A DNA stretch of 64,000 nucleotides from Tetmemena sp. SeJ-2015 (lineage: Eukaryota > Ciliophora > Spirotrichea > Sporadotrichida > Oxytrichidae): contig JAJKFJ010022002.1 of NCBI GenBank assembly GCA_027382625.1, positions 62,001 to 126,000 on the forward strand, read 5' to 3'. The translations under genes and the position numbers were made by a program. Under the pieces are notes generated by a model, which did not search any database, was not told where the DNA came from, and saw only the letters and a program-made list of their open reading frames with translations. This document shows positions 7,549 to 12,970 of the stretch, piece after piece; position 1 is the stretch's first letter, and every line of letters starts with the position of its first letter.

Positions 7549-7820
7549 GCACACCCACTAACAACCTACCTATCTTTACTAGAAAGATATTATTCACTAT
7601 TTTTGGATTAGAAAAGGTCTATTTAAATTTGCAAGAATCCCATAAATATAACTTACTCTGATACGCTATTTAATCTTGAATAGGAAGTGTGTAGACGGTC
7701 GAATAATCGAGTTATTATGATAATTTGGATGATAGATTGAAGGTACCTACTACACTGAGTAGGCTAATAAACGGCTCGGAGGCTTTGGGATTAACCCTTT
7801 TTAAAGTAATTAAAATATAA

Positions 7821-10800
7821 ATGAAAACAAAGGCAGAGTCCGATAAGATGAAGTTAATGGCCTCCCAACAAGAACACAAAAACTTACACACACATATCAC
7901 TCCCTTCAGAAAATAACTTTTTTAAACGGCTTGAGCAGTCTAAATGCATCAGTGAATATCTAAGACCCAAATGGGGAAGAGACGACAGTCGTGACTAAGC
8001 CGCGATCAAAGAGCGTGCTGTATGATTTCAAAGTGAACGAGATCCCCGATAGGAAAGATAAGCGTTTTAAGTCCAACTTGATCTCCACTTGCAAATACAC
8101 TTGGTGGAACTTTATCCCCAAAAACTTATTCATCCAGTTTACTAAGTTGGCAAACGCCTATTTCTTGCTCATTCTCGTGCTCCAAGTTATAAAGCCAGTC
8201 AGTATCACAAATGGCTTGCCTGCTATTCTGCTTCCGCTTGGAGTGGTGGTCTCAATTAGTGCCCTTAAAGATATCATAGAAGACTTGAAACGCTACAGAT
8301 CAGACCAAACTGAAAATTTGTCCCTTACACTTCAATTAATTTCATACTCTTTATAATAAATAGGAAGAAATGCTTGGCCAAAAATGATGAAAGCTAGAAG
8401 TTTGAGCCTACAGAATGGGAAAAGTTGAAAGTTGGGCAGACCGTTAAGATATTCTAGGACGAGCCTTTCCCTGCCGATTTGATTCTGTTGAATTCTTCTC
8501 TCACAGGTGGTATATGCTATGTAGAGACGAAAAATCTAGATGGTGAAACAAATCTAAAGCATAAGAACTCAGTGAAAGAAGTTATTCCTTTAGCAGCCAC
8601 TGAATTTATAATTAAATAAAAATGAAAAGCTTTTAACTGATGAGATGGTATTAAATTTCGAAGGGCATGTATTTTGCGAGTCTCCTAATGACCGAATTTA
8701 CAAGTATGAGGGGAACATGCAGAGTCCCAAAGTTAATAAGGACATTTCCTTGTCAGCTGATAACATGCTTTTGAGAGGATCAAATCTGAGGAATACTGAA
8801 TTCGTTTGGGCAGTAGTGGTTTTCGTAGGCCACGATTCCAAAATTATGCTCAATTCTACCTCAGCGAGGAATAAATTTTCCAGAAATGAAAAAGCCACTA
8901 ACATCTAGGTTCTACTAGTATTCTTGCTTCAGCTAGCTGTATGCTTCTTTGGATCTATGTTTGGAACTATTTGGGAGAGGGATAATCGTGAGGAGACGTT
9001 TGACTATTTGAACATCACAATGCTTTATCCAGGTAGCGAAACGAGAAGTTGGGCCACTCAATTTTTCACAAGATTTGGTACATGGATCTTGCTCTTTACA
9101 AATTTCATTCCTATCTCCCTCACAGTCACGACTGAGGTTGTGAGAATGGCTTGATAAATTATAATATTTTTAGTATCTATATTGGCTTAGGGATTCTTCA
9201 TGTCTTGGGATGTGGAAATTTATGATTTCGAGAAGGACATGGCAACAAGGGTACAGTCGAGTAACCTAAATGAAGAATTGGGCTAGGTCCATTACATATT
9301 CTCAGATAAGACCGGTACTCTCACTCAAAATATAATGGAGTTCAAGAAATTCTCAGTTGGCGAAATCTCCTATGGTATAGATGGATTTAATCATAAGGAT
9401 AAGATGGCTTAAATATATAGAGTCTTTATTAAAATGATTATAACATTTTAGCTTAGAGGTATCCAAAACTTTAACAAGAAAATATCACGAATGTGAACTT
9501 CGAAGATCCCACTTTCTTCTCACATTTGAAAGACCAAGGACACCCTAACAACTTGAAAATATATAACTATTTGGAGTGCTTAGCTCTCTGCCATACAGTG
9601 CTCATTGAAAAGAAAAACGACAAAGTGTTTTACAACGCCTCTTCACCAGATGAACTTGCTTTGGTTAATGCAGCCAAATTCTTTGGCTTTACTTTCATTG
9701 GGAGAGACGAAAATATATTTGCTTAATGTTTTTCTCAGTCTTTATAATGAAAATAGTAACATGATGATTACAAAGCCTAACGGCTAGAAAGAGACTTTCG
9801 AACTTTTAAATGTTCTTGAGTTCAACTCAACTCGAAAAAGAATGAGTGTCATAGTTAAGAATTAATCAGGTTAGATAAAGCTGATATGCAAGGGAGCTGA
9901 TTCAATAATTGAGGCAAGACTCAAGAAATCTCCTGATAACTAGGAGATGTTCAAGAAGACAGACAACCATCTTTAGTAGTATGCCAAAGATGGCCTAAGA
10001 ACACTTCTTATAGCAGAGAGAATCCTAGATACAAACTATTATAGCTAGTGGTCATAAGAATTCTACAAGGCATCTCTACTCACGCAGGGGAGAGATGATG
10101 CTATAGATGAGTGTTCTGAGAAAATTGAAGTAGAGCTGAATATTATAGGTACTACTGATTATTAAATTAGAAAGTTAAAATTCAGGACGCACACGACCGG
10201 CACTAGGCACCGGTCGCCCTTTCCCTGAAGGCTCTCTGGTTTGGTAATCCATTGGCTGGTGGGTGAGTGCTTAAAAGAGGCAAGGGATAATGGCAGCCGA
10301 AGCCCTGGGGAAGGTGGTCGAGCTGCTCACTGGAGAGATAATCAAAGGTGAGTGGTTCCCACTCACCCTCCTAATCCTTGTAGGCGTGTAGGGATGTGAT
10401 CTATGGGCAAACACTCAGTTATGCAGTTGGACAGCGAAGCCAGACGCTACGGAGCAGCGACTTGCTCCCGGTCCGAAGCTACCGGATTTTTTTTCTCCTT
10501 TTAGGTTTTTTTTTGGATGGTATGCAGGGAGCTTCTGCTCAGAATGTGAGGTGGGGGGTGCCACGTGTTTAATATCCCTATTCGGCTGGTAGGTTTGTGT
10601 GCGTCAGATAAGTGCGTCACAGCAATATCATTGACGTCACGGCCTATCTTATTTATGCCGGGGGCCCTTTAATTCCCTTAATTATTATTATAGGTACTAC
10701 TGCCATTGAAGATTTACTCTAAGAAAAGGTCGGAGAAACAATTTACTCACTCAAGGAAGCTGGAATTAAAGTTTGGGTGTTGACAGGAGACAAAATTGAA

Positions 10801-12970
10801 ACGGCCATCAACATCGGATACAGTTGCTAACTTCTCAATAACGACATGCTTTAGCTTTTAATAGATGGAGCTAATTCGAAAGAGATAAAGAACGAAATGG
10901 GAAAGGCAGAGGTAGAAGTTAATAAAAATAATGGAGAAAGAAAAGTCGGTATTATAGTAAGTGGGGCTGCTCTTATAGATATTGCTGCTGATAGCTTTAT
11001 GAAAGACAAATTTATTGACATTTGCAGTCTCGCTCAAGTCGTCCTAGCTTGCAGAGTCTCACCAAAGTAAAAGGCAGATGTAGTAAACATGGTTAAAGAA
11101 AGATACCCTGAGGCTACTACTCTTGCTATTGGAGATGGCGCAAACGACGTTAATATGATTACTGCTGCTCACATAGGAGTAGGAATAAGTGGAAAAGAAG
11201 GATAATAGGCTGCAAGAGCTGCTGACTATGCAATTGGCTAATTTAAGTTCCTTCAGAATTTACTCTTTGTCCACGGAAGAGAGTCCTATAGAAGAAATTC
11301 ATATCTGATCTGCTATATGTTCTACAAGAATGCTCTTTATGTGTTCCCATAATTTTGGTATGGAATTCTTAATACTTTCTCAGGACAAACAATTTATGAG
11401 TCTTGGGTATATCAGCTTTACAATATCGTATTTACAGCACTACCTATTATGTGGTATGCACTTTTTGACGCTGAATTCAGCAGAGAAACTTTACATTCAG
11501 ATCCTAAGCTTTATGTGGCGGGCCCGGATAAGCGTCTTTTTAATAAGAAGATCTTTTGGAAATGGATGCTATATGCCACTTGCAAAGCCTGCCTAATTCT
11601 GTTCCTAGTCGCTTGGACCTTCGAGAACTCTGTAAATAAAAAAGGCTAAACCTCTTCTTTCTGGGTTTTCGGCATGATCATTTATTCGCTGATAGTAATT
11701 CTAGTGAACGTTGAGATTCTCTATCAGACTAGCAATCATTCGGCCTTAAGTATTTTCATTTTCATAATATCTACTGGTTCTTTCTATCTGGTTTATGCTA
11801 TAGAGAGCGCTCTAACTATAATTCCCAATCTCTACGGCACTTACTTCTTCATTTGGATTTCTCCTCAGTACTACCTAGTCATCATCTTTGTCGTAATCTT
11901 TCAACTCTTTATTCAAATGTCTCAAAGAGATAAGTTAATTTTTAGTTAGCATCCTTAAATTCTTGATATAAGATATGGCAAAGTGGTACTTCGAATATAA
12001 AGACAGTGCTAATCTTAAAGGGACCCATCACTCCATAAGACAAGATGAGAAGGAGGGAATTCAGCAATCCTTAGCCATCACATAGCAATAGACTAAGAAT
12101 ATAGCACACGATAGCTAGTAGAACCCTGAAAATTTTGTAAACACTTTTGAGGCTATTAGAAGGCAGACCACTCATAAGGGCTTTGCATTCAGTTAGGAAA
12201 GAGGAAACGACCCCATGGTTATTGAAAGACTTCCAACCAACAAGAGAAGTATAATTATCATGATTATAGGATAATAATTTATATGAGAATCTAGCACATG
12301 AACTCTTTAAATTTAAGTCAGAATAGAATTGGAGATGACACTCCAAAGGCCAATGCTCCTCACTCTGCACACTCAAGAGGCGGCAACAAAGTAGCACCTG
12401 TTTATCACTTCCACACAATTAAATGTAAACTTAATTAATTATCAGTCCTAGAAATCTAACTCCATTAAGCAAGCTGATTAAAGTGATCTAAACTGAATAA
12501 ATGAAAATGGCACTATACAGGAGGAAAGCATCTATGAAGTGGAATATGATAGCGAAGTTTCCCAAAATTACGATTAAAATATATAAAAGAGAGATCAAAC
12601 TTCAATTTCAGACTTAAACGAGAGCAGCTAGGGGAGGTTGAACGAAAGCAGTATAGATCAGATTCTTCATCTCTCTTCAAAACAGTCGGATTAATAAGTC
12701 AAGGCGGCGGCAAAAAGGGTTTATTAACATCGACAGCAATATGACGACTCAAACAAAAATACTGATGATGAGGTGGAAGAGAATAAAGAAAGAGTTAAGA
12801 AACATTTTTTAACTATAATATTTAACCTGGTCTAAAGTTGGTTTAAGTCAAGTCTAGGAAGATTAAGAATCCACTCAAAAAAGCAAAATTCAAGACCTAG
12901 GATTTGGAAAACACTCTCACTGGGATTCTAAAGTAGAATCGTTGAGTAATCTTTTTAATGCTTAAAAATA
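7821..12970 (+). CDS. P4-type ATPase (phospholipid flippase)
   Basis: Flips aminophospholipids from the outer to the inner membrane leaflet using ATP. Visible in order: first TM pair ([20 protein letters not shown] and following), actuator DGETN in [10 protein letters not shown], the phosphorylation site [11 protein letters not shown] near 9305-9335, nucleotide-binding [12 protein letters not shown] and [11 protein letters not shown], hinge [10 protein letters not shown] near 11130, and four to five C-terminal TM segments to about 11950. Eight AT-rich IESs and one 545-bp GC-rich IES break the frame; each removal recovers the family sequence. A long charged, Ser-rich tail follows TM10. Upstream ATGs at 7821-7857 are one frame off the body, so a short IES probably lies near 7910. 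The end is uncertain (12945-13080) because several frames are open. Confidence 0.9.
8314..8361. other. IES in P4-ATPase, pointer AAAT
   Basis: AAAT at 8314-8317 and 8358-8361; deleting 44 bp gives [14 protein letters not shown], the expected start of the actuator domain. Confidence 0.8.
8599..8640. other. IES in P4-ATPase, pointer ACTGA
   Basis: ACTGA at 8599-8603 and 8636-8640; deleting 37 bp joins IPLAAT to DEMVLNFEG in frame. Confidence 0.85.
9147..9188. other. IES in P4-ATPase, pointer TGGCTT
   Basis: TGGCTT at 9147-9152 and 9183-9188; deleting 36 bp removes a TGA and gives [18 protein letters not shown], the conserved stretch after TM4. Confidence 0.88.
9407..9455. other. IES in P4-ATPase, pointer GCTTA
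   Basis: GCTTA at 9407-9411 and 9451-9455; deleting 44 bp gives [20 protein letters not shown] in frame with the downstream nucleotide-binding domain. Confidence 0.82.
9709..9755. other. IES in P4-ATPase, pointer GAAAATA
   Basis: GAAAATA at 9709-9715 and 9749-9755; deleting 40 bp gives [18 protein letters not shown], which leads into the [13 protein letters not shown] motif. Confidence 0.85.
10141..10702. mobile_element. 545-bp GC-rich, structured IES-like insertion with 17-bp pointer
   Basis: TATTATAGGTACTACTG is present at 10141-10157 and 10686-10702. Deleting 545 bp joins VELNIIGTT to AIEDLLQEKV exactly, in the middle of the P-domain coding region. Unlike other IESs here it is long and GC-rich. 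It contains perfect hairpins: CGACCGG/CCGGTCG (10194-10200 with 10210-10216), GGTGAGTGG/CCACTCACC (10347-10355 with 10359-10367) and GGAGCA/TGCTCC (10451-10456 with 10463-10468), followed by runs of eight to nine T. No protein-coding frame is convincing. A SINE-like or other Pol III-type element with a 17-bp target duplication would also fit. Its flanks could even splice as AG/GT (10149-10693). Confidence 0.75.
10190..10520 (+). ncRNA. Possible structured RNA within the GC-rich insertion (tentative)
   Basis: The core of the insertion holds at least four strong stem-loops and ends in long T runs near 10486-10515, as for a Pol III transcript. I do not recognise 5S, tRNA, SRP, RNase P or group I intron signatures. 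Orientation is inferred only from the T runs. Confidence 0.3.
11928..11975. other. IES in P4-ATPase tail, pointer AGATA
   Basis: AGATA at 11928-11932 and 11971-11975; deleting 43 bp gives [19 protein letters not shown], the usual short helix after the last TM segment. Confidence 0.82.
12244..12289. other. IES in P4-ATPase tail, pointer GAGAA
   Basis: GAGAA at 12244-12248 and 12285-12289; deleting 41 bp joins LPTNKR to [17 protein letters not shown] in frame. Confidence 0.7.
12417..12441. other. Short IES in P4-ATPase tail, pointer AATTA
   Basis: AATTA at 12417-12421 and 12437-12441; deleting 20 bp gives [17 protein letters not shown]. There is no family conservation here, so this rests on frame continuity only. 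Confidence 0.5.

Follow-up and report, generated by a model that had tools for sequence, protein, structure and literature searches.

The window, that is, the whole 64,000-nucleotide stretch of DNA analysed, covers positions 62001-126000 of contig C2964 in an assembly of 146.2 Mb and 5213 contigs. Within it, a P4-ATPase gene is interrupted by an insert flanked by two copies of a 17-bp sequence, TATTATAGGTACTACTG, at 10141-10157 and 10686-10702. The two copies are spaced 545 bp apart, and the repeat had no match in 100 shuffles of the window. The perfect 17-bp repeat around a 545-bp insert, which had been proposed from the letters alone (hereafter the sequence-only reading), is therefore real. 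The element itself is 528 bp long (10158-10685), and the net segment of element plus one repeat is 545 bp. The features of the locus are as follows.

8601-12048, plus strand: P4-ATPase stretch examined; 926-amino-acid frame after joining
9147-9188, plus strand: short IES-like segment, 36 bp removed, pointer TGGCTT
9407-9455, plus strand: short IES-like segment, 44 bp removed, pointer GCTTA
9709-9755, plus strand: short IES-like segment, 40 bp removed, pointer GAAAATA
10141-10157, plus strand: left copy of the 17-bp target-site duplication (proposed pointer), containing TAG/GT
10158-10685, plus strand: full-length SINE-like non-LTR retroposon, differing by 2.3% from the majority sequence of 58 copies
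10194-10216, plus strand: hairpin 1, CGACCGG/CCGGTCG
10347-10367, plus strand: hairpin 2, GGTGAGTGG/CCACTCACC
10451-10468, plus strand: hairpin 3, GGAGCA/TGCTCC
10468-10485, plus strand: hairpin 4, CCGGT/ACCGG
10487-10514, plus strand: two internal T runs, T8 at 10487-10494 and T9 at 10506-10514
10661-10685, plus strand: conserved 3′ terminus, with the beginning of the (TTA)n tail
10686-10702, plus strand: right copy of the 17-bp target-site duplication, a perfect repeat of the left copy

The P4-ATPase reads with both TAA and TAG as glutamine. Its 926-amino-acid frame opens once the insert with one repeat and the three short segments are removed; with the insert kept, the frame stops early, and the net 545 bp is not divisible by three. 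Because only removal opens the frame, the germline gene needs exact removal of the insert. As with an IES, a direct repeat flanks the insert and its removal restores the coding frame. The insert lies within a P4-ATPase motif conserved with yeast DRS2, to which a joined part of 445 amino acids was aligned over 431 residues across the junction (E = 9.4e-113). The three short segments have a GC content of 0.16-0.20. With no exact GT-AG register in any of them, they look like IESs to be excised rather than introns. The sequence-only reading had described the other IESs of this gene as AT-rich, 20-44 bp long and bounded by pointers of 4-7 bp; the three that were checked, not all of them, agree with this. 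The glutamine code, these pointer-flanked segments and 150 scored Tc1/mariner-type DDE_3 matches in the assembly (among 921 first-look candidates) suggest that the assembly represents a spirotrich ciliate's germline genome. An empty P4-ATPase site was absent from the assembly, which holds only this locus and five matches of 68-74%, presumably paralogues, and from the viral contigs.

The insert is GC-rich, as claimed (0.496, where the window has 0.338 and 4 kb of flanking sequence 0.367), and four hairpins were located where at least four stem-loops had been announced. It does not end in T runs, as had been thought: T8 and T9 are internal, and the 3′ terminus is CCCTTAATTAT, which continues into the right repeat. 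The folding energy was mildly unusual, with z = -1.47 on the plus strand, where 5 of 100 shuffles were equally good, and z = -2.66 on the minus strand, where none of 100 was. Neither the window nor the insert had a match in Rfam, even up to E = 5, or to a tRNA; phage records gave no match. Covariation was weak overall. For the predicted plus-strand structure, 13 double-changed cells were counted versus 6-11 with slid partners, and adjacent pairs in hairpin 1 supplied 4 of the 13, one cell each; for the minus strand the count was 7 versus 1-7. The sequence-only reading had named a structured RNA or a SINE-like retroelement. Without an Rfam match and with such weak covariation, the structured-RNA part found little support.

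The retroelement part fared better. A search of the assembly with the insert gave 40 scored matches among 703 first-look candidates, namely the window itself and 39 others that matched over nearly the whole length at 94-96%; three partial matches were found besides. A 28-base pattern at the 3′ end had 128 exact matches in the 146-Mb assembly, a 39-base 3′ stretch with at most three mismatches had 298, and a 5′ stretch pattern had 293. Reversed control patterns had no match for any of these three counts. The similar 5′ and 3′ counts, obtained with patterns of differing strictness, suggest that most copies are full length. The element is thus one of roughly 300 members of a dispersed and young family.

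For closer comparison we used 58 full-length copies, 30 from the insert search and 28 of 36 fetched tail loci; the remaining 8 tail loci were incomplete or cut by contig ends. Forty-five of the 58 were within 3% of the majority sequence, in a sample biased to young copies because similarity or an exact tail was the basis of selection. Four copies differed by 10-17%. The 5′ end was nearly fixed across the copies. One copy, L078, looked like a mosaic: its mismatches cluster in a strongly diverged 5′ part and its 3′ part is close to the majority, which may reflect template switching or a subfamily with another head. Relatives of 73% identity adjoin young copies in contigs C206 and C1710 (L007 1023-1435; C1710:27037-27458), as if an older subfamily marked preferred sites.

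Insertions of non-LTR retroposons are flanked by target-site duplications that differ from site to site and vary in length, about 7-20 bp. Such duplications were present here. An edge repeat of at least 7 bp was found in 53 of the 58 copies, and one of 11-18 bp in 39; in the other 19 no repeat of at least 11 bp was seen. Left and right flanks shared at least 12 bp in 36 of 58 copies, versus 3 of 684 swapped pairs, so the duplications are specific to their sites. They start AT-rich and often with TTA, matching the (TTA)n tail: 38 of the 39 duplications of at least 11 bp start with A or T, and 30 have TTA within the first six bases. The tail is itself variable, measuring 4-38 nt from CCCTT to the second duplication in these 39 copies.

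Variable target duplications and a 3′ simple-repeat tail of variable length are marks of a non-LTR retroposon, and a short (528 bp), non-coding, dispersed and mostly full-length element resembles a SINE. The data carry the class assignment as far as a SINE-like non-LTR retroposon; we do not claim membership among the classical SINEs. Pol III A and B boxes scored no better than in shuffles, and there was no tRNA or Rfam match that could place the head with tRNA, 7SL or 5S RNA. A T run of at least 7 is kept in 57 of 58 copies. T runs of such length are expected to stop Pol III on that strand, and here it is the strand needed as template on which they should do so. For these three reasons the element is filed as SINE-like only. 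A small ORF of 96 nt gave a nonsynonymous-to-synonymous ratio of 1.83 versus 2.36 expected; this is no clear constraint and lends a coding origin no clear support.

A LINE family found with RVT_1 (LINE A; L031-L037 and L039) also has a (TTA)n tail, and its copies have differing 5′ start points. Duplications of 12-15 bp flank 4 of the 7 copies tested (L037 was left out) and none was found at the other 3; 4 of 42 swapped pairs also reach 12-13 bp, which we attribute to loci that share flanks by duplication. A classical SINE would share its 3′ end with a partner LINE; between LINE A and the element only the tail unit was found in common. The 3′ end of LINE A scored 23 against the element, below the shuffled maximum of 27, and no common body sequence was seen. 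Nor was any other LINE seen to share the 3′ end of the element body: all 36 tail loci fetched, of 128 exact tail matches, carried the element itself. LINE A is a candidate helper for the element. LINE families B and C are also present (L038, L040-L044, L065-L068). Two loci with APE and RT domains, L065 and L066 (contigs C3382 and C3934), are 97.5% alike over 9.9 kb, which could reflect duplication, two haplotypes or a long element.

Some other copies also lie in exons. In a codon screen of 53 copies, L057, L078, L001 and, marginally, L052 scored above the 99% intergenic value, and the remaining 49 were not evidently in coding sequence. The score was trained on the long ORFs of the window, the P4-ATPase included, and its background took in the intergenic control region as well; it therefore serves as a screen and not as proof. 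Pfam detected domains in two of 10 joined ORFs, namely RCC1-type repeats at L078 and an AMP-binding domain at L074; the other 8, L057 included, had none.

The L078 insertion interrupts an RCC1-like gene in contig C2029, and contig C3925 has the same left edge and duplication. Contig C1095 carries an uninterrupted RCC1-like homologue (416 residues over 1248 bases, 96%), whose DNA holds ATTAGGTACCACTCTA once, in line. The ORF at L057 (contig C1180) likewise has uninterrupted homologues, in contigs C3307 and C4353, with 213 residues across the junction at 80%, and C3307 holds TCAATTATGAAAAA once. Because the empty homologues hold a single copy, the duplication at both sites is a product of insertion, and the unit to be removed is exactly the element plus one copy. 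The SINE-like part of the sequence-only reading therefore stands on a dispersed, young family with target duplications and on a single-copy repeat at two homologous empty sites. Contigs C1095, C2029 and C3925 have several matches in common at similar spacing, two with the insertion and one without, and seem to be haplotypes or a recent segmental duplication in the assembly. At L057, residues 1-40 of the joined ORF (C1180, about 7602-7721) were hit alone by about 136 of 142 homologue-search matches, at 52-89% identity; this stretch is a further dispersed repeat, which in some places (C1863, C455) lies near the retroposon.

Several other explanations were weighed. A DNA transposon or MITE, like the mobile IESs tied to Tc1/mariner elsewhere in ciliates, would also be short, non-coding and repeated, but no terminal inverted repeats were among the listed pairs, the duplication varies in length where a MITE would have a fixed one, and the variable (TTA)n tail stands at one end only. 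We give this origin practically no weight. Equally negligible is a single structured RNA gene of the host: the several hairpins, the minus-strand fold and the four adjacent double-changed pairs of hairpin 1 are what such a gene might display, yet the element has roughly 300 dispersed copies with target duplications, no Rfam match and weak covariation overall. Retention of the insert in the soma, with this P4-ATPase copy a dead or dispensable paralogue, is a little less remote and still very improbable. The presumed paralogues exist, and one of them, in contig C541, is uninterrupted across the insertion point, but the 926-amino-acid frame is open apart from the insert and the three removable short segments, and the alignment with DRS2 extends over nearly all of the 445-amino-acid part.

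Splicing deserves more attention, although we consider it unlikely. The insert would then be kept in the macronuclear gene and spliced as an introner-like intron, GTACTACTG...TTATTATAG, with splice sites supplied by the duplication. A target duplication containing AG/GT could convert an insert into an intron in this way. Since the 17-bp duplication (AG/GT) has one exact GT-AG register, splicing could remove the window copy. Of the 39 copies whose duplication measures at least 11 bp, the window copy and L078 are the only ones with an exact GT-AG register in the orientation of the element; L046 alone has one on the other strand. Both of the former lie in coding sequence and both introns would begin GTACYACT. 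Nothing else speaks as strongly for splicing, which keeps some weight at these two sites. At L057, the third coding insertion, there is no exact GT-AG register, however, and AGGT stands close before the 5′ end at only 7 places, compared with 4 for the reversed control and with 293 five-prime ends in all. The duplicated C2029/C3925 site accounts for two of the 7, and some of the matches may be other sequence than the element. A family-wide preference for AGGT, as expected of introners, is therefore not clear, and the introner reading does not hold as a family property. The P4-ATPase also has three pointer-flanked segments beyond the reach of exact splicing, so removal as an IES at the 17-bp repeat is the simpler explanation. 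The sequence TAGGTACYACT is common to the duplications of L078 and the window copy, which lie in unrelated genes, and the other 37 duplications of at least 11 bp have no AGGT; this may be chance or selection for splicing as a fallback.

We conclude that a full-length, young, non-coding SINE-like retroposon has landed in a P4-ATPase exon and is, with good probability, eliminated as an IES with its own target duplication as pointer. That the 17-bp duplication is the pointer is our best inference from the sequence.

This combination has partial parallels in other ciliates. In the openly accessible literature that we consulted, we met no SINE-derived IES in a spirotrich and no retroposon-born IES with a target duplication as pointer. 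The Paramecium germline has putative SINEs and LINEs (PMC5405496), and thus also harbours non-coding, multi-copy class I elements in the presence of LINEs. The putative SINEs there were annotated from sequences inserted in other elements (PMC5405496), whereas the present copies include exon insertions, with empty sites and duplications that are candidate pointers. Paramecium also has thousands of mobile IESs (PMC8354472). These are likewise dispersed and mostly non-coding, and the title of that paper mentions colonised exons, but several of the families are tied to Tc1/mariner (ITm) elements, and the word retrotransposon occurs 0 times in the main text (PMC8354472).

IES boundaries are TA in Paramecium and diverse repeats in other lineages (PMC8384191), and most pointers in four spirotrichs are AT-rich and shorter than 10 bp (PMC10901763). 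Hypotrich germlines harbour TBE transposons (PMC9797194). The TBE and Tec elements of hypotrich and Euplotes germlines resemble the present element in being transposons within germline-eliminated sequence of ciliates with pointers; they are DNA transposons with a transposase (PMC9797194), whereas the present element bears marks of spread through RNA and a long, variable duplication. In Blepharisma, IESs occur with Pogo-type elements and MITEs, and retrotransposon-derived sequence was detected more in the soma than in assembled IESs (PMC9942856). The MITE-derived IESs are similarly non-autonomous elements accommodated by genome editing, but they are Pogo-type, with a TAA/TTA duplication and terminal inverted repeats (PMC9942856). 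An insert whose duplication contains AG/GT could become an intron, a point in common with introners, but the present family has no clear AGGT preference. Introners are the subject of PMC9860276.

The starts of the duplications and the variable tail are what target-primed reverse transcription produces when a nick in the target leaves an end that pairs with the tail of the element RNA, and the element was probably copied in this way. Here, a target end in TAA-3′ would pair with the (UUA)n tail. The enzyme would be that of a LINE, and the assembly contains a LINE family that also ends in (TTA)n. During macronuclear development the insert would then be eliminated as an IES, with the 17-bp duplication as pointer, and because of this elimination the insertion would be neutral in the soma.

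IESs are usually traced to cut-and-paste DNA transposons, and the excision machinery may still recognise the ends of these. A copy-and-paste element with arbitrary duplications provides no transposon-type ends. If such an element is removed precisely, repeat homology together with a comparison of germline and soma may be enough to tame a new insertion. The assembly holds both filled (C2029, C3925) and empty (C1095) homologous sites. We lean, with less assurance than for the single locus, towards a general form of this explanation: any target-primed duplication of 11-18 bp may double as a pointer, and retroposons that land in exons may be born as removable IESs with no need for transposase-type ends. 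If this is true, retroposition would keep supplying new IESs with long pointers.
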